64,000 bases of DNA, taken from NCBI RefSeq assembly GCF_900496995.4, contig NC_044012.1, forward strand, positions 22,606,759 through 22,670,758, written 5' to 3'. Within the stretch, counting starts at the first letter, position 1. Each line of letters begins with the position of its first letter. Source of the stretch: Aquila chrysaetos chrysaetos. Its lineage: Eukaryota > Chordata > Aves > Accipitriformes > Accipitridae. Positions 37,964 through 57,110 of the stretch are shown one piece after another. The position numbers were made by a program, and so were the translations under genes. The notes below the pieces were generated by a model. It saw only the letters and a program-made list of their open reading frames with translations. It had not been told where the DNA came from and did no database searches.

Positions 37964-40900
37964 TCAAAACTCATATGGGGACACAAAGGCTGTGACCTTG
38001 AAAATGTGCTTGCCCAGGAGGACCTTGTGGGAGAACTCGCTCATCTCCAGCTCCACCTCCAGTGTGGCTGGCCCGGCCACAGGGCTGGTGAGCACCAGCT
38101 CTCCCGTCTGCCTGTCGGAGCGCCGCACGGCAAAGACGCCCTGTCCCCGGCCGCCCGTGATGGCGAAGCGCAGGCTGTCACCCACGAAGCGGGTGGTGGA
38201 CATCTTGAAGAGGACGCGGGGCACGGTGCGGTTGGCCTGGAGAGGCAGGTAGTGGAAAGAGATGGAGGTGGCAGCCAGGCGGCAGGCTCGGCTCTCCATG
38301 GGGCAGGGGTTCCTCTCACACTGGCTGCCAGGAGAGAAGGAGTACAACCACTCAGTGCAGTGGTTTGGTTCTCGGGGAGCTGCCTGCATCCTTGCAAACA
38401 AGCCTAGCCCGCACTGCAGGTAGCATCTCCAGCCCCACTGGTGGTCCTGCGGCAGAGCAACCCAAGCCAGCCACATCTGAGTGTGCCCAGCATCGGTTCT
38501 CTGTCCCATCCCTGCCTCTGCCAGGCAAATGCCATGCCTTGCAGGGATACGGCTCTGGGTCACGCTCCGAGGCTGGGACCTGGGTTACCACAGTCCCAGC
38601 TGGAGGCCAGGGATGGAGCCAGGCTCAGATGTGCCTCCCGCAGTGGAACATCCCTTGTCCAGAGCAGGGATGCTCCTCCGCTTGGGTCACTTGTGCTCGG
38701 CTGCAAAACAGTTCAGTCTCACAGTCAGAACCAGGGGGGTTTTGCCTGCTGGATGGCAGCCGACGGCACTGCGTGGATGTGCAACAGAGGGGAAATGGCA
38801 TTGTTCCACCCAGGCTGGGGCTCTGAGGGGCTGGGGTCCTGGATTAAAGTCACCATGTATCAGGGTGCTCCCACCTGCACCCCCAGCCACCGGCATCCCA
38901 AAACCATCGGGGAGCATGCCAAGCACACCCAGGCACCCCACCTGGCAATTTGCTGCCAGCGCTGACTGGCACTCTCCCTGCTGCCTCTGGTTGACATGAT
39001 ATGGTCCTCAGGGCACCATAGGACCCATCACCTGGGGGAGAGAGCATGACGCAGCCCGAGCCACATGCGGTACTCACAAGGCGGAGGTCTTGACGTAGCT
39101 GGTGTTGTGGCGCGGTGGGGGGCACTTGGGGCGCACGCAGCGATGGCCCCCGAAGGTGTTGATGCAGAGTTCGCCCTGGGTGCAGTTGTGCTGCTTCCCG
39201 GCGCACTCGTTCACGTCTGTGGCGGTGACACGGGGTGAATGGGGCTGTCCCTGCTGCTCCCCACTGCACCCCAGGTCCCGTAGGATGCTCTCTGCCCTGC
39301 ACCCACTGCTCTTACCCTCGCAGGCATTGCGGTCAGTGTGGAGCAGGTAGCCGGGGGGGCAGACGCAGCGGTAGGAGCCGGGGAGGTTGAGGCAGTCGTG
39401 GAGGCAAAGCCGGGTCTGGGGACTGGACTGGAAGAGCTGGCACTCGTCGACATCTGGGGGGACACAGTGGAGCATGGCTGGGGCTCCCATTAATGCTGAG
39501 CTTCAGTTTCCAACCCCGCCCCCACCATCCTCATGTCCCTTTTACCGTGGCACATGCCGCTGGCTCGCATCTGGAAGCCGGCGTCACAGCTGCAGCGCCG
39601 GGAGCCCGGGCGGCCCTCGGCACAGCGGGGCTGGCGGCTGAAGGAGGCGTTGCTCAGCGTCACCCAGTCTGTGGGGGTGAGTGGGTGTCACTGCTGGGGT
39701 GGGGGGCATGGGGACATGGGTGGGGGATGAGATCCCGGGGGGCTGCCAGGGAAGGGGGAGACGGGTGCAGCATGGCTGGGTGCTGTCTCCATGAACATCC
39801 CCATCCTCTGCAGCCCAAACCCGGGCACCTACAGGCGTAGACGGGGCTCTGGCAGCTGGGGCCTGACCAGCCCCGGGGGCAGAGGCACGTGTAGCTCTGG
39901 TTGCCATCCACGCAGGTCCCACTGTTGGCACACGGGTTGCTGGAGCAGTCGTCAATGCCTGGGGAGAAGGAACTCATGAACACCAGCGCGTTCTCGTTGC
40001 CACCCTGCTGCCCAGCCTCAGTGCCCATTGCTGCAGCCTCTGGCTGCTCTCCCTGCAGCCGGGGGAGCAGAGCGATGGGACCCTGCAGCTTGGGGCGACA
40101 GAGGAGCCCCCAGGGAGGGCTGAGCCCGTGGCACCCCAACCCTGTTCCACTTCACTTCTGCAGAAGGGCTGGGTGCCGCTCCACGTGCGGTCGTGTCGGC
40201 AGGCGCGCGTCTCTGAGCCCACCAGCCGGAAGCCGGCGTCACAGACGAAGTGAACGTCGTGGCCCACCCGCACGCTCCGGCCCAGCATCCGTCCATTCAG
40301 GGGCACCACCGGCTGCGGACAGGTCTCTGCCGACAGACAGACATGGGTGAGGACAGACATTGCCAGGCTGGAGCCGACCTCAGCCCTGGTGAGGAGCTGA
40401 GGGTCCCTCACCCAGGCTGCTCGCCAGGTGTCCGGGGGTCAGAGCCAGCCCCGTGGGGATGTCACCCCTGGCCGGGGTTACCGTTGCGTTTGGTGGCCTG
40501 TCTCTGGAGGCGGTTCTGGAGGATGGAGAGCTGCTGCCGGAGTCCACGTGTGCCCCGCAGGTGGGCGGCCTCCTGTGCCGCCAGCAGCTTCTGCATCTGG
40601 CGCACCGCACTGAGCGCCTGCTGCTGGCTCAGGCACTCCTGGGGGGACACAAGGACATCCCCATCACCCGCCGGACTCCACCGCCACCCTGCCGCAGCCC
40701 AGGGGGACCCTGCCAAGCAGGCAGCATCTCTGGGGTTGGTTTGGATGCCCTGCCCCAGGCAGAGCCCCTTCCTCCCCATCCCAGTGTGGGGGCTGCCCCT
40801 GCCTCTGTATCTGCTCCAGCTTCAGCCCCTCTGCTTGGTTCTGCCCCAGCACTTGGATGCTGAGGAGCAGCTCGGATGCCCCAGGTGGGTTTAGCATCAT

Positions 40901-41160
40901 CTTGCTGCTGCAGGAGAAAAGCCCCACAGCCATCTCCCCTGGCCCTGGGCAGCCCCGTGGGCACCATGGCTGTGCCATACCCCCCAACCCGGGGCGGTGA
41001 CGGAGTGCTGGGGTGTGAGAGGTGGGTGCTGAGAAGCCCCCAGTGGGGGGGGTCTGCAAGGGGGCTGGATGGGGGGCATGAGTGTCCTTACCTGGGCGCT
41101 GCCGAGGGGCAGCTGCAGGATGCCCAGGGCCAGCCAGGCTGGCAGCGGGATTAGGAGCAT
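37964..41160 (-). CDS. Fibulin-7-like secreted matrix protein, complete
   Basis: A secreted extracellular-matrix glycoprotein of the fibulin-7 type; mammalian FBLN7 is an adhesion protein of tooth and cartilage matrix. Eight coding exons, in transcript order: 41092-41160, 40482-40638, 40156-40326, 39833-39958, 39546-39668, 39316-39453, 39078-39216, 37964-38324. Phases join to 1284 nt, 427 aa (human FBLN7 about 439). Order of parts: signal peptide 1-22 (MLLIPLPAWLALGILQL), a coiled coil about 24-75 (CLSQQQALSAVRQMQKLL), one sushi domain about 77-133, an EGF-like domain (IDDCSSNPCANSGTC), a linker half-domain, two calcium-type EGFs (DVDECQLF and DVNECAGK), then the fibulin C-terminal module starting QCERNPCPMESRAC and ending KVTAFVSPYEF. 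Every part and intron position follows FBLN7. Human FBLN7 is at 2q13, not beside CLEC18, so this may be a paralogue or a relocated orthologue; I leave the symbol blank. It is divergent from CLEC18 across a telomere-like tract. Confidence 0.88.
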
Positions 41161-41750
41161 CGTGTCGGGGCTGGCTCCGGCCGCACAGGCTGCAGGGACG
41201 AGATGCTGGCAGTCCGGTTCTGCCCCGCTCGCTCGCAGCCGCGCTCCTGCGCTCACCGGGATTTATTCACAGCGCGTGCCCGTGTGTTTGTTGGTTTTTC
41301 CCCTGGCTGAGGCAGAGCCATAGGAAAGTTTCCCCTTGGCACTGGCACCAGCCTCTCCCTTCCCTTCCCTCTCCGCACATCAGAGGCTTTGGGGCCTTTC
41401 ATGTCACAGGGCCAGCAGATGCCGGGGCCAGGCGGTGGCTGTCACGGCACTTGCTGCGGTACCAGTGGTTCCGGGCTCCCCCCACAGCCAGCCACGGCTC
41501 TGGGGCTCCCCAGCACGCAGGGGTGAAGGATGAGGCTAATCCCGTGTGCTTGCTAAGCATGGGAAATTCTCCCGGGAGAAAGGATGGCTTTGGAGTTGGT
41601 GCTGGTATCCAGCTCTCTGGTGGGGCTGGGGCTGCTGAGGAAGGCAGCCTGGCAGCACCGTGGACTTGCCGGCCTCGGCACGGCTTTGCTGGGGTGAGCT
41701 CAGCCACGGTTGGAGCCTACAGGGGGACCTCAGGGCTCTGCTGCAGCCTA

Positions 41751-42100
41751 GAGTTGGGGTGCAGGTTGGCATTACAGTCAGCATTAGGGTCAGTGTTAAT
41801 GTCAGGGTCAGCATAAGGTTTAGGGTTAGGGTTAGGGTTAGCGTTAGGGTTAGGGTTGAGGTTAGAATTAGGGTTAGGGTTGGGCTTAGCATTAGGGTTA
41901 GGATTGGAGTTAGAGTTGGGATTAGCGTTAGACTTATGGTTAGAGCTAAGGTCAGGTTTTGGGTTAAGGTTAGGGTTAGGGTTAGTGTTGGGATCGGTGC
42001 CAAGGGTTTAGGTCCAGATGAACAGGAGGTTAGCATGAGGGTTAGGGTTGGCATTAGCAACCCCAGGGTTCAGGCCAGGGTTAGGGTTAGGCTCAGGTCA
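41751..42100. repeat. Degenerate interstitial telomeric (TTAGGG) tract
   Basis: About 350 bp built from GGTTAG/TTAGGG units on the plus strand, with runs of three to four exact copies (near 41820-41850 and 41965-41985) separated by diverged copies (GTTAGAATTAG, GTTAGAGTTGG). It lies between the divergent starts of the fibulin-7-like gene (41160) and CLEC18 (43064). An open frame rich in V-R-V-S runs across it and is a repeat artefact. Confidence 0.9.
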
Positions 42101-43063: not shown

Positions 43064-47067
<4,004 letters not shown>

Positions 47068-47621: not shown

Positions 47622-47627
47622 AATAAA
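47622..47627 (+). promoter_or_regulatory. CLEC18: CLEC18 poly(A) signal
   Basis: AATAAA within GTTAATAAAGACC, 555 bp after the stop codon and followed by a T/C-rich stretch. The 3' UTR just before it (about 47540-47615) holds three short copies of a CCTCACCATCACC-type repeat. Confidence 0.8.
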
Positions 47628-48479: not shown

Positions 48480-48960
48480 CAGCCGCCACATCCATACAGC
48501 TGCAGCCTCGGGGAAGAGCGAGCCCCAGGCCCAGCGCTGCCGGCAGCGGTGCGTGCAGGCAGGGACAGGCAGCGATGCTGCAATAACGCACCGCTGCGCT
48601 CGGGGCGGGGCGCGGGCGGGCCGGGGCGGGGTCCCCCACCGCTCCCCCCCCACCTCGCCGTGCCGCGATGGTGCGGCCCGCCGTCCCCCCTCCTCGCCCT
48701 GCGGTGGTAGAGCCCGGTGGCGGCGCGCTCGGGCCGGAGCGGCGGGGCTGCGGGGGCTGCGGGGCCGCCGGCGCTGCGGGGGGATGACGCTCTTCGGCAG
48801 CGGGGACGCGGGCTGGAGATGTGAGTACCGACCCGGATCCGGCCCTCCATCCCCCCCTCACCCGGGTGTCGTCGTCCGTCCCCCCCCCCCCCCCCCCCGC
48901 CCTCCCGGGATCGGCCCTTTTCCCACACGCCCCCACCCCCGCCCCCAGCCCCCAGGTAGA
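48480..48960 (+). promoter_or_regulatory. CpG-island promoter of the RALY-like gene
   Basis: Dense CpG with GGGGCGGGGC boxes leads into the exon holding ATG 48784 and its gtgagt donor at 48821. A C homopolymer of about 18 (near 48880-48898) follows the first exon and is a likely sequencing-error and slippage site. Confidence 0.6.
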
Positions 48961-51900
48961 TGCTCCGGCACCGGGATGCTTACCCGGCACCGGCAGCCCT
49001 GCCCGGGGCAGGGGTACCCCCCTGCAGCCAGGTTTCTGGTGCCCCCACCCCGGGCAGGGCCGCCTCCCGGTACCGGGATGCCTCCCGCCCCTTTGGACCA
49101 GTACCTCCCCCCCGGACACGCATGTCCTCCCGGTACCGAGCCGCCCCACAGCCCGGTACCAGTCCCTCCCAAGAGCTGGGATGTCCTCCTGGTACTGGGA
49201 TGCCTGGTCCTCCCCACACCATTACCCCCCCGCCCAGGACAGGGATGTCCTCCCAGTACTGGGATGCCCCCATGCCATTACCTCCAGGACAGGGATGTCC
49301 CCCTGGTACTGGCATGCCCCCATGCCACTACCCCCAGGTCAGGGATATCGTCCCAGTACTGGGATGCCCCCATACCATTACCCCCCCAGGACAGGGATGT
49401 CCTCCCAGTACTGGGGTGCCCCCCATACCATTGTTCCCCCACACCATTACCCCCCACCCAGAACAGGGATGTTCTCCCAGTACTGGGATGCCCCCTCGCC
49501 ATTACAGGGAAGAGAGCCCAGACGCAGGGCCGATGACCCTGGGATGAAGGAGTCCTGCTGGCCTGGGTCCCCTGCCCCAGCAGGACAGTCCCCATGGTGC
49601 AGGTGGCCTGTGACAGGGAGCCTGGCCATGGCTGGGGTCCCTGGCTGGGGTGCTGAGGTCTCCATCCTGCTGGCAGGGAGACGAGTGGGTGGCTTTGCCG
49701 GGCGGGTGTGGTGGGATGGAGAGAGGGATGTTGACGGCGGGCTCCGGTCCTGAGCAGTGAGCTCGGCCATCCCTGGGGATGCTGGCTGCACCCACAGAAA
49801 ATGGGTGCCAGCATTACCTAGCGCGTGTGCAAGGGCAAGCGGAGCACCTTCCCCAGCTCGCCCCAAGATCAGAGCCAGCCCGCAGACTTTGTCACACAAG
49901 GTGACAGCCTGGAAAGCAAACACGTGCCAGTTTCCTTCTGCTCGGATCTCCTCCACAGGCTGCGGGGCTGGAGGGGATCCATGGCCCGTGTCCACGCTCC
50001 TGGGGAGGTCTAGACCTCTCTGATGAGTTGGTGTGTTCCCAGAGGACTCGGGAAGCTTCAGCTCGGGATTCCCTGGTGCAGTGGCATCCACAATGTCACC
50101 CGCGGGACAGCTGGCCACGCTTACCATGGCCAAGGGGGAGCGTGCAAGAGGGAGCCCTCAACATCTCACCTACCGGCTCCTACCCCAGGGGCCAGAGAGG
50201 TTTTGGAGCCCCCCAAAATTACAAAATTAAATACATGGAGACGTTAGTAAAGCATTGCATCAGTGGCTCTCAAATGTATACTCAGAAAATAGATTCAAGC
50301 TGGCTTTTATATGGACGTTGCTTGTGAAATCCTAAAGAAGGGGTGAAGAGCATTGCTGGGGAGGTGAGACATGGCATCACGAAGCTGCATGTCCAGAGAC
50401 ATCTCCACCCCACATCTCAGCATCACACGTGTCTTGGCAGCCTTTGGGACCGTGAAGTGGCTGGGTGTAGGGCTTCCCCCATCCCTGGCACCCATTCATG
50501 GTGGGCAGCGCTTACCAGCATCCCACTGGCCTGGGGCTCCCCGAAAAATGGCTCAACCACCCAGCAGAAGGGATAGCGAAGGTGGATTCACCGTGGTGGT
50601 GGGAAATGTCTCCAGGGGTTAATTACCCTCATCATCAGAGGTGCTTTCTGCCACCCTAATTGGAGCCCGCCTGGTCTCAGCTGGGCACGGGCCCCTGGGG
50701 ATGGGACACCCACGGGAAGGGGCTGCTGCAGGGACAGCCGGAGCCACTCCATGTCCTGGCACAACCCTGGGCCACTCCTGTCCTTCCCCAAAAACTTAAG
50801 TCGAGAGAGTTGCCAGCCTCAGGCTTGTCTTGCAGATGCTCTGGAGTGGGACATCTCCAGCCAGGAGAGGAGGGTGGCCGGTAGCCCCCGAGAAGCCGGT
50901 GCCAGAGACGCATCCGTGCGGAGCAGGGTGTTGGCATCCCCTTTTCTTCCCGCTGCTCATTCCCCTCCTCTCTCTCCCCGCAGATTTGGACATGGCCAGG
51001 GAACCCAAGCCAAGCCGGGCCAGGCTGGGCCAGAAGCGGCAGCACGGCAGCAGCCTGTACCAGTGAGTGCCGGCACGTGGGGTCGGGGCTGTGACAGGGG
51101 GAACTTGGCTCCAGCTGGGGACTGTCCCACACTTGGCTCCTCTTCCTCCCCCTGCTCTCCATCACTCACCCTCCGACTATTCCAGCTGCCTGCCCACGGT
51201 GGTGGGCATGGGTCCGTGGGATGTACCTGCCCCATGGGGCTCTCGGAGCATCACCTTACCTCAGCGGTGGTGGCTGGAGTCCTTGCCGGGTCCCGCCTGG
51301 TGTGTGTTGCTGATGGGGTGTGGAGATCCCCCTTCCCCATCCGAAGGTGCTGGGAGAAGAGCAGAGCCCTGTGGTCTCCACACCTGTTACAGATGTCAAT
51401 GTTGGTTGCAGTTCTGGCCTTTAAATGCTGTTCCTTGGGGGACAGACATCCCTGCAGAGGCACATAGGGCTGGCGATGGTCCTGACGATGGCAGTAGATG
51501 ATGGTGATGGTGGCACTGATGGCAGCAGAAGAGCAGGTTCCCATCCCTGCATGTTTTCGGCTCCTCAGCTCTGCAGACATGTGGCAAGGAGAGGACAGGA
51601 GCCAGGCTCCGTCTGTCTTGTTAGAGAGCTTTTTGCGAACGCCCTGATTGAACTAATTGCTCTGCCCGTTGCCATGGCGCCGGAGGGATGCAGTGCTGGC
51701 AGGGCAGGGACTGCCAGCCCCCAGGGCCACTGGAGCATTGCAACTGCTGCTTTTGCTCTTCCTGGGGGATGCTCTGAGCAAAAAGCTGAGCTGGGAAAAC
51801 CTTTGCCATGTCCCTAGCTGGGTGCCAGACCCCAAGACCAGGTCTCTTGCGGAGCCACCAGTGCTCCCATGGCAGGAGGTGACCTGTGGCATCCCCGTCC

Positions 51901-54900
51901 CTCTTGGCAGTGGCTCCGGGCAGCAGCAGCCATCAGAGCTGGCACCTTCCCTGTGCCCTGTGCGTGGGTTGGGACTCCTCTCCGGCTGCCCATTCCCCTC
52001 TTCCCCAAGGCAGGTTGTGACCTTCCTCCCCGGCTGATGGGCAGGAGGTGGGGATGCGAAGGACTCACCGTCCCCTTCACAGCGATGGAAAGTTGGATGG
52101 CAGCAAGGCTGGCCCGAAAGCTCCCAAAATATCCCCAGGTGCAAACAACAGGAGCAGGCGGGTCCTGGCACCCTGGGGCTGCCACCTTGCCCTTACTAGG
52201 AAGGCTGGTGCTTGCGGGCTGCGTCCCATGTAGATTATTCTTGAATAAGGCAGGGCGGCAGCAGGGCTGGGAGTGCCTTTGCCCTGTGATGGGCTCTGAG
52301 CTGCCTTCTGGGTTTGGCAAGCCTGGCTTACTTGGTAGCCCCAGGCAGAGCAGCCCAGGTTGTCTATTAGCCCCCTCAGCAGACCTCCAGCTCTCCTCGA
52401 GCTCCAGCATTGGTCCCGTGGTGACAAGCTCATCTGCAGCAAAATCTGGAGCCCTGGGGGACCTTGTACTGGTCCCCCCCCATTCCTGGCAGTGTGGCTG
52501 GGGAAGGGTCCCTGCTCCCAGTGATGCTCTAAGCACGGCTTTGTCTCCCCTCGGGTTAGGCTTAATCCTACGCTTCCTGACTCCACAAGAGCTGAAGCAG
52601 CAAAAAGAGCTTCAGCATCTTTCCTCCTCCTCCTCCTCCCCCTCCCCGCTCCTGGTCCACGGCGCATGATTTATTACCGGCACGTCGGCTTCCCGCATTG
52701 GAGGCGATCTGTTGACAGATCGCTTCTTAATTTGGAGCCGAGCGAGCCGGCAGCGTGCGTGCAGAGCCAGGGACCATGAAATTTAACATCAGGGTGCTCT
52801 AAATGCAGCTTCCTGAGAGCAGAGCCTGCTGATGCTGCCCCAGGGACTCTCTCCATCCCCCCTAACACCCTTGTTTGGTGCCAGGGCAAACCCCTGCCAG
52901 AGCACAGCCACCTCCCCAGGCTGTGAGGCAGCCCAGGCAGCTTGCGCGGCACCCTCTGGCGCGCCTCCCACTCCCTGGGGTTGGGGATGGAGGCTGGGTG
53001 GGTGCCTCTGCCCTGCTGTGCCCAGCCCTAGCTGCCCCACAGCATCCATGGCCTCGCAGAGCGGGTGACTTTTGTTCTCCTCTCTCCCCCTCCTGCAGCA
53101 GTAACTGTGACCTGGACTATGATCTCTACAGGGACGACTTTCCGTACCGGTGAGCACGGCATCCCAGGAGCGGGGTGGGCTGAGCATGCCTCTACCAAAG
53201 GCGGAAAGTGGGGTGTCCCTGGGCATCTGTCTCCCTGCCTCCAAGAGAGGCTCAGCGGTGTTGCCCCCTTCGAGGATGGTATGCCACAGATTCCCTGGGC
53301 TGGGGGCCTTGGGGAGGGGGTACGTGGAGCAGGGCCAGCATGTGGGCTGGGCAATGCCTAGGCTGGGGGGCCTTCACTGCAGAGGGACCCCAAGAGATGC
53401 TCTCTTAGCTGGCTGGGGCTGCTGCTGCACCTCTGGGGCTGCACTCACGCCACCGTGCTCTTGTGCCCTTGCAGGGTGTACGAGTACCAGAAGATCCCCC
53501 CCCTCATTAACCGCATCCCGGTCAAGGCCAGACGAACTCATGTGGGAGCAGGAGGCAAAAGCAGCCTGAGCCCCCAGCCTGGGGCGAGGAGCAGCACCAG
53601 CTCCACAGCAGGACGGACAAAATGTAAGTGCGATGGGGCTGAGAGGAAAGAGGAGGCTCGGCCCGCGCGTCTTGGCACATTAGAGCAATGCCAGTCACCC
53701 GAAGGTCCCGCTCGGTGCTGACACTGTGGCTATGAGTCCCCAGCTCCAGCAGACACTGCCTGGACTGCGCTGGGCTGGTGGCTGTCCCCTGGACCCGTCC
53801 CTGTTCCCCAAGGATGCTCTGGAGAGGAGGATGCTCCAGAGGTGGCTGCCCAGGACGGTGTGTTCCCCCGGCTCTGGGCAGGCTGTAGGGCAGGGTGGGA
53901 TCTTAACAGTTCCTCTTCCCCACAGTGCGGGCCGAAGAGCTGCACTCCATCAAAGGAGAGCTGAGCCAGATCAAGGCGCAGGTGGACAGTCTGCTGGAGA
54001 GCCTGGACCGCATGGACCAGCGGAGAGAGCGTCTCACGGGTGAGGGGACAGGTCGTAGACCCGCCGACACCCATGTGTCCGTGCCGGGCAGCCTGTGGGT
54101 GCATGCCAGCCTGGACCCAGAGTTGGGTGTAAGGGATTCCCTCCGTGCGTGCCCAGGAGGGAGTTGGGCATCTGGAGCTGGCTGGGCAAATTCCCCACGT
54201 CCTCCCCCTTACCTGGCCTGGCAGCGCACAGTCCAGCCCTTTGGCACAATGGGACCCTGCGAGGACAGGCCTGATGTTTGCATGGGTACCCCAACTTTCT
54301 GCTGTCTCTGTCCTTGCAGGGTCCAAGGAGAGCGAGAAGAAGAGGGTAGAGACGGGGGCAGAGTCACCGTCCCCAGCAGGAGAGGGGTCACGGGAGCCCC
54401 GGGGGAAGGAGGGGATGGGAGCTGATGGGCACAGCGACCTGCGCAACATTGACAGCGCCGAGGACAGCACAGACACGGAGGAGACGGTAAGAGGAGGGCC
54501 AGATCCTCCACCAGGCTTTCTGCTTTCCTAAAATTCATCCCCACTTGCTACCTGCATGGGTCCTGGTGGGGGATGCCTGGAGCAGAGATGCTCCATCAGG
54601 GTCCCCCAAGCTGTCCCAGCTGCTTACCAGGGCTACAACCGCCCGCTCCTCCAGGACAGCCCCAAGCACCCTGCAGCAAACCCCTGGGCGTGCATTACTC
54701 CAGCAGCACAGGCTGCAACCCCCCACACACTTTGGAGTAGAAATACCTTTTATCAACACTGCTGCTCCCATACCCACATCCCCCAGCTGGGTGCAGGACC
54801 CTAGGGATCCCCGTGCCAGGCAGGGCGCTGGGTTTGATCCTGCTGCCCAGGCACATCAGAGGACGGCCACCCTGTGCATTTTTTCTTGCAGGTGAAAAAC

Positions 54901-54930
54901 CACATGTCGGACCCCGAGGGGAGCCAGTAG
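48784..54930 (+). CDS. RALY/hnRNP-C family protein lacking a visible RRM
   Basis: Seven exons: 48784-48820, 50984-51062, 53099-53149, 53475-53623, 53926-54039, 54320-54486, 54892-54930. Phases join to 636 nt, 211 aa. From exon 2 on it follows RALY/RALYL/HNRNPC in order: LDMAREPKPSRARLGQKR (RALY: DINMAGEPKP), CDLDYDLYRDDFPYRVYEY (RALY: FDYDYYRDDF), a basic RIPVKARRTH nuclear-signal-like segment, then the leucine-zipper-like coil about 106-143 (LRAEELHSIKGELSQIKAQV, close to RALY LKSSELQAIKTELTQIK), an acidic Ser/Glu-rich tail and the end VKNHMSDPEGSQ. The family's N-terminal RRM is missing: exon 1 gives only MTLFGSGDAGWR, and no RRM exon is seen in the 2.2-kb intron or upstream. In family proteins the coil drives oligomerisation, so this could be a nuclear partner or competitor of RALY/hnRNP C; that is inference. 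Start alternative: the ATG at 50990. Exon 3 has a tandem CAGCAG acceptor. Confidence 0.8.
48960..49510. repeat. 50-65 bp minisatellite in intron 1 of the RALY-like gene
   Basis: About six clear copies (starting near 49180, 49243, 49293, 49343, 49393 and 49466), each built of CAGGACAGGGATGTCCTCCC, then AGTACTGGGATGCCCCCAT, then ACCATTACCCCC. More diverged copies extend left to 48960. Long open frames on both strands here are repeat artefacts. Confidence 0.9.
49511..50983 (+). other. Remainder of RALY-like intron 1, no RRM exon found
   Basis: Read in three plus frames for RRM hallmarks (VFIGNL, GYAFVQY); none was seen. A minus-strand open stretch near 49800-49990 has protein-like composition but no family match (see rejected items). 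Confidence 0.5.
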
Positions 54931-56639: not shown

Positions 56640-57110
56640 GGAGGCTGTTCTTGGGGGGCTCTGGCAGTGCGTGGGGCTGCTTGGGTCCTGCGGGGCCACA
56701 TGGGAGGGGTCTCCTGTGACACGGGGGCTCCTCAGGCAGGCTCCGGGGTGCTTGGGCAGTGTGGGGGGGGTCTCTGGTAGTGGTGGGGAGGCAGGCTCCA
56801 GTGCCCTCGGGCAGGTTTCTTGGGCCTCCAACTGTGTGGGCATCTCTGGGGGGGTCTCAGGCAGCTCAAGGGCTGGCTCAGGCTGGCTCTGGGGGGTCTC
56901 TGGGAGCTTGAAGGCTGGCTCAGGCTGGCTTCAGGGCCTCTCTGGGAGTGTGAAGTGTGGATCAGGCAGGCTCTGGGGGTCTCTGGCAGCTCAAGGGCTG
57001 GCTCAGGCTGGCTCCGGGGAGGTCTCTGGCAGCTCAAGGGCTGGCTCAGGGGCTCTCTGGGAGCGTGAAGCGTGCATCAGGCAGGCTCCAGGGTCTCTGG
57101 CAGCACCGAG
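56640..57110. repeat. Minisatellite in the EXOSC6 3' UTR
   Basis: About seven imperfect copies of a roughly 55-60 bp unit on the plus strand containing GGCAGCTCAAGGGCTGGCTC and GGTCTCTGGGAGC. It lies between the EXOSC6 stop and its poly(A) signal, so it would be transcribed in EXOSC6 mRNA as a C/T/G-rich complement. Confidence 0.85.

Follow-up and report, generated by a model that had tools for sequence, protein, structure and literature searches.

The question raised by this locus is whether a gene of the RALY/hnRNP C family is present without the N-terminal RNA-recognition motif (RRM) and, if so, how such a gene arose and what its product may do. Re-splicing of the sequence of the window, i.e. 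the whole 64-kb stretch of DNA analysed, gives a RALY/hnRNP C-like gene of seven exons with a single open frame of 211 residues (Table 1). Inspection of the exon borders reveals that all six introns are of the GT-AG type, and the joined frame has a single stop, at its end. These results agree with the preliminary description, in which exons 2-7 were held to reproduce the post-RRM half of RALY/RALYL/HNRNPC with frame and splice sites intact, and exon 1 (MTLFGSGDAGWR) to join exon 2 in phase, the split codon (T plus AT) encoding Tyr; this junction was reproduced on re-splicing. The GC contents of the first, second and third codon positions (0.594, 0.491 and 0.797, respectively, with 0.621 for the introns) form a coding-like pattern with GC-rich third positions. 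The open frame alone is weak evidence for coding, because 527 of 20,000 composites of seven intron pieces were likewise free of stops; in a codon-usage scan, exon 5 was the only exon of the gene among the top 90 segments. We conclude that the gene structure is real at this place and that it is without an RRM in the assembly examined.

Table 1. Exons of the RALY/hnRNP C-like gene and features of its 5' region (positions in the window)
Feature	Position	Strand	Basis or remark
Exon 1 (proposed)	48784..48820	+	MTLFGSGDAGWR plus first base of codon; only GTGAGT donor and its only in-frame ATG
Exon 2, post-RRM segment (LDMAREPKP...), phase-1 start	50984..51062	+	Second-best C-terminal profile match, 13.3 bits
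Exon 3, DLDYDLYRDDF box, NAGNAG acceptor	53099..53149	+	Profile 11.1 bits
Exon 4, basic linker with degenerate NLS-like KARRTHV	53475..53623	+	Profile 11.6 bits; charge count
Exon 5, coiled-coil oligomerisation segment (CLZ-like)	53926..54039	+	Profile 26.6 bits, E 9.4e-7; 1TXP match
Exon 6, acidic tail	54320..54486	+	In-frame
Exon 7, C-terminus and stop	54892..54930	+	Frame ends here
CpG island, probable promoter	48500..48900		GC 0.798, CpG o/e 0.85
Intron 1 tandem repeat	49103..49505	+	7 copies, spacing 50-72 bases

Kinship was assessed with a C-terminal profile made from the post-RRM sequences of human RALY, RALYL and HNRNPC, which ends at the coil and leaves out exons 1, 6 and 7, and which was searched against all translated segments, 12 residues or longer, from the six frames of the whole 64 kb. 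Its four best matches are, in order, exons 5, 2, 4 and 3, all on the same strand and colinear; the fifth-ranked match scored 7.7 bits and the maximum across 25 dinucleotide shuffles was 9.7 bits. Since the four best matches are colinear exons above the shuffle maximum, chance similarity to RALY/hnRNP C can be rejected, and the family relationship proposed earlier is upheld. Compared with the shuffle maximum, the EPKP segment (exon 2) scores higher and the YRDDF/DYD segment (exon 3) only marginally so; exons 3 and 4 are individually barely above noise, their order, strand and spacing lending support.

The strongest match, the CLZ coiled coil typical of the family, has all eight core positions. 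The closest solved structure is the oligomerisation helix of hnRNP C, 1TXP (14 of 26 residues identical), with an E value of 0.011 that is weak by itself because three NAA10 sequences, aligned over the coil and acidic tail, score almost equally (E 0.015-0.016). Compared with 1TXP, 8/8 hydrophobic positions remain hydrophobic, consistent with the earlier claim that the coil is preserved. Pfam searches on the 211-residue protein gave only matches below cut-off, all over the coil, the best being BLOC1_2 (17.9 bits vs a cut-off of 33.4). Of the 46 residues counted in the linker ahead of the coil, 9 are K/R and none is D/E. A basic linker is present in the NLS/bZLM region, with the KRxRV cluster replaced by KARRTHV. 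Exons 6-7 encode an acidic tail, with 17 D/E and 9 K/R in 68 residues (net charge -8).

In alignments with the human proteins, the coil is identical to that of HNRNPC at 15 of 27 positions, vs 22 of 27 between HNRNPC and RALYL, suggesting that the gene is more diverged than its paralogues. With one gap placed by hand, the exon 2 block shares 11/20 residues with each of RALY and RALYL and 9/20 with HNRNPC, and the exon 3 block 10/18 with each of the three, identities that appear to favor no single closest paralogue. RALY and RALYL differ from the gene in having an RRM and in chromosome position. Because an N-terminal RRM was searched for and not found by profile and tblastn over the window, or by Pfam on 15 forward segments, we regard the gene as an RRM-less relative rather than as a canonical member of the RALY/hnRNP C family.

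The RRM profile used in those searches derives from the RRM sequences of RALY and hnRNP C, checked against 1wf1 and 2mxy. Across the whole window a single segment stands out, the one that carries the exon 2 stub, DLDMAREPKPSR, at 9.6 bits; the remaining matches score at most 5.7 bits (best at -14653), below the 25-shuffle maximum of 9.1 bits. Between the stop of the upstream gene at 46875 and exon 2, the best profile score on either strand was -0.5 bits, in keeping with the earlier description of the gene as having no detectable RRM. An RRM hidden elsewhere in the window was considered and rejected, the other matches being below the shuffle maximum with none listed between 47.6 kb and exon 2. 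In a sensitivity control, simulated two-exon RRMs were found in 60/60 cases at every one of the six identity levels used between 70% and 35%, and in 56/60 at 30%, a lenient control in that the simulated sequences carried substitutions only, with no indels, and were derived from one of the two profile sequences. No Pfam domain was detected in 15 forward segments, five of them in 46.5-49.8 kb (E up to 1) and ten in 48.4-51.1 kb (E up to 10); the region from 46.9 kb through exon 2 has 31 such segments with at least 40 residues, of which these are 15. A tblastn match to RALYL at 48644-48880 (E 8e-4), obtained without composition correction or a low-complexity filter, spans a stop and is proline/arginine-rich, and was taken to be an artefact. 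An Rfam scan gave no matches at the gathering score.

The CpG island spans exon 1, and CpG o/e is 0.19-0.37 in windows of 500 bases between 47250 and 48000 on one side and between 49000 and 49500 on the other. Six donors score at least 7 in 48.5-50.96 kb, among which the GTGAGT at 48821 is alone of its kind, and the only in-frame ATG for it within that interval is at 48784; we therefore propose 48784-48820 as the first exon. Translation could alternatively start at the ATG inside exon 2 (GACATGG); whichever start is used, the protein is without an RRM. An upstream ORF of 39 codons (48668..48787, + strand) has a stop that overlaps the start of exon 1 as ATGA, a possible termination-reinitiation layout. 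The AATAAA of the CLEC18-like gene lies at 47622, 1.2 kb upstream of exon 1. Given this signal and the position of the CpG island on exon 1, the 5' part of the gene probably lies within about 47.6-51.0 kb, and only there is room for an RRM; these ~3.4 kb have no N, like the window as a whole, and no RRM signal. Intron 1 carries a C19 run as well as the tandem repeat listed in Table 1.

The start of exon 2 appears to retain a footprint of an earlier arrangement. The exon opens in phase 1 with AT, and a preceding G would yield Asp, giving DLDMAREPKP in register with DINMAGEPKP of RALY, whereas with the proposed exon 1 the split codon encodes Tyr. This phase and register argue that an RRM exon probably once preceded exon 2, with the present exon 1 being a likely replacement first exon.

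With respect to origin, the order of genes in the window is TPPP3, a fibulin-like gene, a CLEC18-like gene, the RALY/hnRNP C-like gene, EXOSC6 and an alanyl-tRNA synthetase gene. TPPP3 (p25-alpha; best match 2JRF) is 42 kb from the RALY/hnRNP C-like gene. In the CLEC18-like gene, upstream on the + strand, joined segments from 46135 to the stop encode a lectin domain of the C type (Lectin_C, E 4.7e-19), and the best matches of EXOSC6 are MTR3/EXOSC6 chains (E 1.6e-94). The fibulin-like gene, between TPPP3 and the CLEC18-like gene (37967-41266, - strand), has an EGF domain together with Fibulin_C (E 8.9e-32) and is reminiscent of FBLN7. Positions 41820-41985 hold a degenerate array of the telomere-like repeat TTAGGG (27.7 copies, 69% match), and a 42-bp tandem repeat (4.9 copies) at 56844-57050 closely follows the EXOSC6 coding segment.

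A published human 16q22 duplication list comprises WWP2, CLEC18A, PDPR, CLEC18C, EXOSC6 and AARS1, and has no RALY-like gene in the interval from CLEC18C to EXOSC6. TPPP3, the CLEC18-like gene, EXOSC6 and the alanyl-tRNA synthetase gene are neighbours in agreement with human 16q22; the match in gene order is imperfect, as no fibulin gene appears in the list. The adjacency to EXOSC6, earlier flagged as a possible coincidence, matches the order CLEC18C, EXOSC6, AARS1 in that list and appears to be ordinary gene order. Beyond adjacency, nothing supports a functional link to EXOSC6. In this regard, a table of exosome co-factors in another paper places RALY, RALYL, hnRNPC and hnRNPCL1-4 in its Nab3 row, and the same paper states that there is no evidence for such homologues forming a Nrd1-Nab3-Sen1-like complex in human.

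The slot between the CLEC18-like gene and EXOSC6, empty in the human list, suggests together with the neighbouring genes and the literature that the gene may be a fourth 2R ohnologue at a human-16q22-like position, lost in human; this is the simplest origin. The preliminary description did not remark on this position. Human RALY is on 20q11 and RALYL on 8q21, and WWP2, ITCH and WWP1 lie near the three sites. RALYL, RALY and HNRPC/HNRCL are given as a 2R-ohnologue family in PMC4042849, and according to PMC7471279 2R paralogues such as CHD9/CHD6/CHD7 are shared among chicken chromosomes 11, 20 and 2, the fourth not having been found; the main text of the latter paper has no mention of RALY, HNRNPC or TPPP. 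There is also a parallel with a published human 14q11.2 deletion list, which groups TPPP2, ZNF219, HNRNPC and CHD8, in that HNRNPC and TPPP2 share one segment there and the RALY/hnRNP C-like gene is near TPPP3 in the window.

The reading that we prefer, and to which we give an even chance, is that of an ancient paralogue of RALY/RALYL/HNRNPC with introns, probably the fourth 2R ohnologue, which lost its RRM exons, now starts at the CpG-island promoter just upstream, and encodes a coil subunit that modulates hnRNP C/RALY particles. The protein would be made and present in the nucleus, and would enter coiled-coil oligomers of the hnRNP C/RALY type, where an RRM-less subunit could lower the RRM valency or could recruit RNA weakly via its basic linker, thereby acting as a modulator of the particles. 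The divergence beyond that of the paralogues, the weaker NLS-like stretch, the codon-usage scan and the fibulin-like gene count against this reading. In the literature, the CLZ of hnRNP C mediates oligomers, with the bZLM being a major determinant of RNA affinity (PMC8994388); phosphomimetic hnRNPC2 has been suggested to be dominant negative (PMC11914300); and an association of RALYL with HNRNPC has been reported, mainly from databases and co-localisation (PMC11886406). These reports suggest that an RRM-less coil protein could join such oligomers and lower their RRM number. The fuller account is that this lineage retained a fourth 2R ohnologue which human has lost, and that the copy, once rid of its RRM, came to serve as a dedicated partner that limits how many RNA-binding sites an hnRNP C/RALY particle has. 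This account is more tentative, and we place it somewhat below an even chance.

The absence of the RRM might instead reflect the assembly, with normal RRM exons collapsed or dropped out where intron 1 is GC-rich towards its 5' end. Exon 2 does begin at a point that calls for an RRM exon upstream, and both the C19 run and the seven-copy tandem repeat are error-prone; however, the window has no N, and the CpG island, the good phase-matched donor and the AATAAA at 47622 leave only the ~3.4 kb in which the RRM score is at most -0.5 bits, such that we consider assembly loss unlikely. A similar low probability is assigned to the gene being a decaying relic, i.e. an ohnologue that recently lost its RRM and is becoming a pseudogene. 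The missing RRM, the divergence beyond that of the paralogues, the degenerate NLS-like stretch and the apparent absence from the human gene list are all consistent with decay, but no splice site is broken, the frame is open throughout, the coil core and GC3 periodicity persist, and a rough estimate from neutral rates predicts about two lesions per 10 My.

Least probable, in our view quite improbable, is that the protein forms a self-sufficient RNA-binding oligomer through a bZLM-like basic linker and coil, with neither RRM nor hetero-oligomers. The role of the hnRNP C bZLM as a major determinant of high-affinity RNA binding (PMC8994388) and the basic linker, free of D/E in the residues counted, point in this direction; against this, the KRPRV/KRQRV cluster is replaced by KARRTHV, and sequence specificity would presumably be lost.

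The nearest known systems are HNRNPC, RALY, RALYL and human HNRNPCL1-4. With HNRNPC (hnRNP C1/C2) the gene shares the post-RRM segment, DLDYD box, basic linker, CLZ-like coil and acidic tail, and in our own alignment its exon 2/3 junction is near the site of the 13-residue C2 insert (residues 108-120; PMC8994388); it differs in being without an RRM, in being shorter and in its degenerate NLS-like stretch, KARRTHV being weaker than the hnRNP C NLS PSKRQRV given in the same paper. The NAGNAG acceptor of exon 3 (53096-53101) could add or drop one residue. Human HNRNPCL1-4 are intronless RRM-bearing retrocopies. They resemble the gene in being additional copies within the family, whereas the latter has six introns and no RRM. 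Orthologues were, as expected, absent from viral and prokaryote collections, and no extra or RRM-less family member was recognised among the matches listed from the open-access literature; the gene may already be annotated elsewhere.

If the ohnologue reading is true, the gene would complete a 2R quartet, a human list of the family having only RALY, RALYL, HNRNPC and the HNRNPCL copies. Tetramers of hnRNP C are described as measuring the length of new transcripts and packaging them (PMC8994388), and a natural coil subunit without an RRM would offer a direct test of whether the number of RRMs per particle sets RNA selection.
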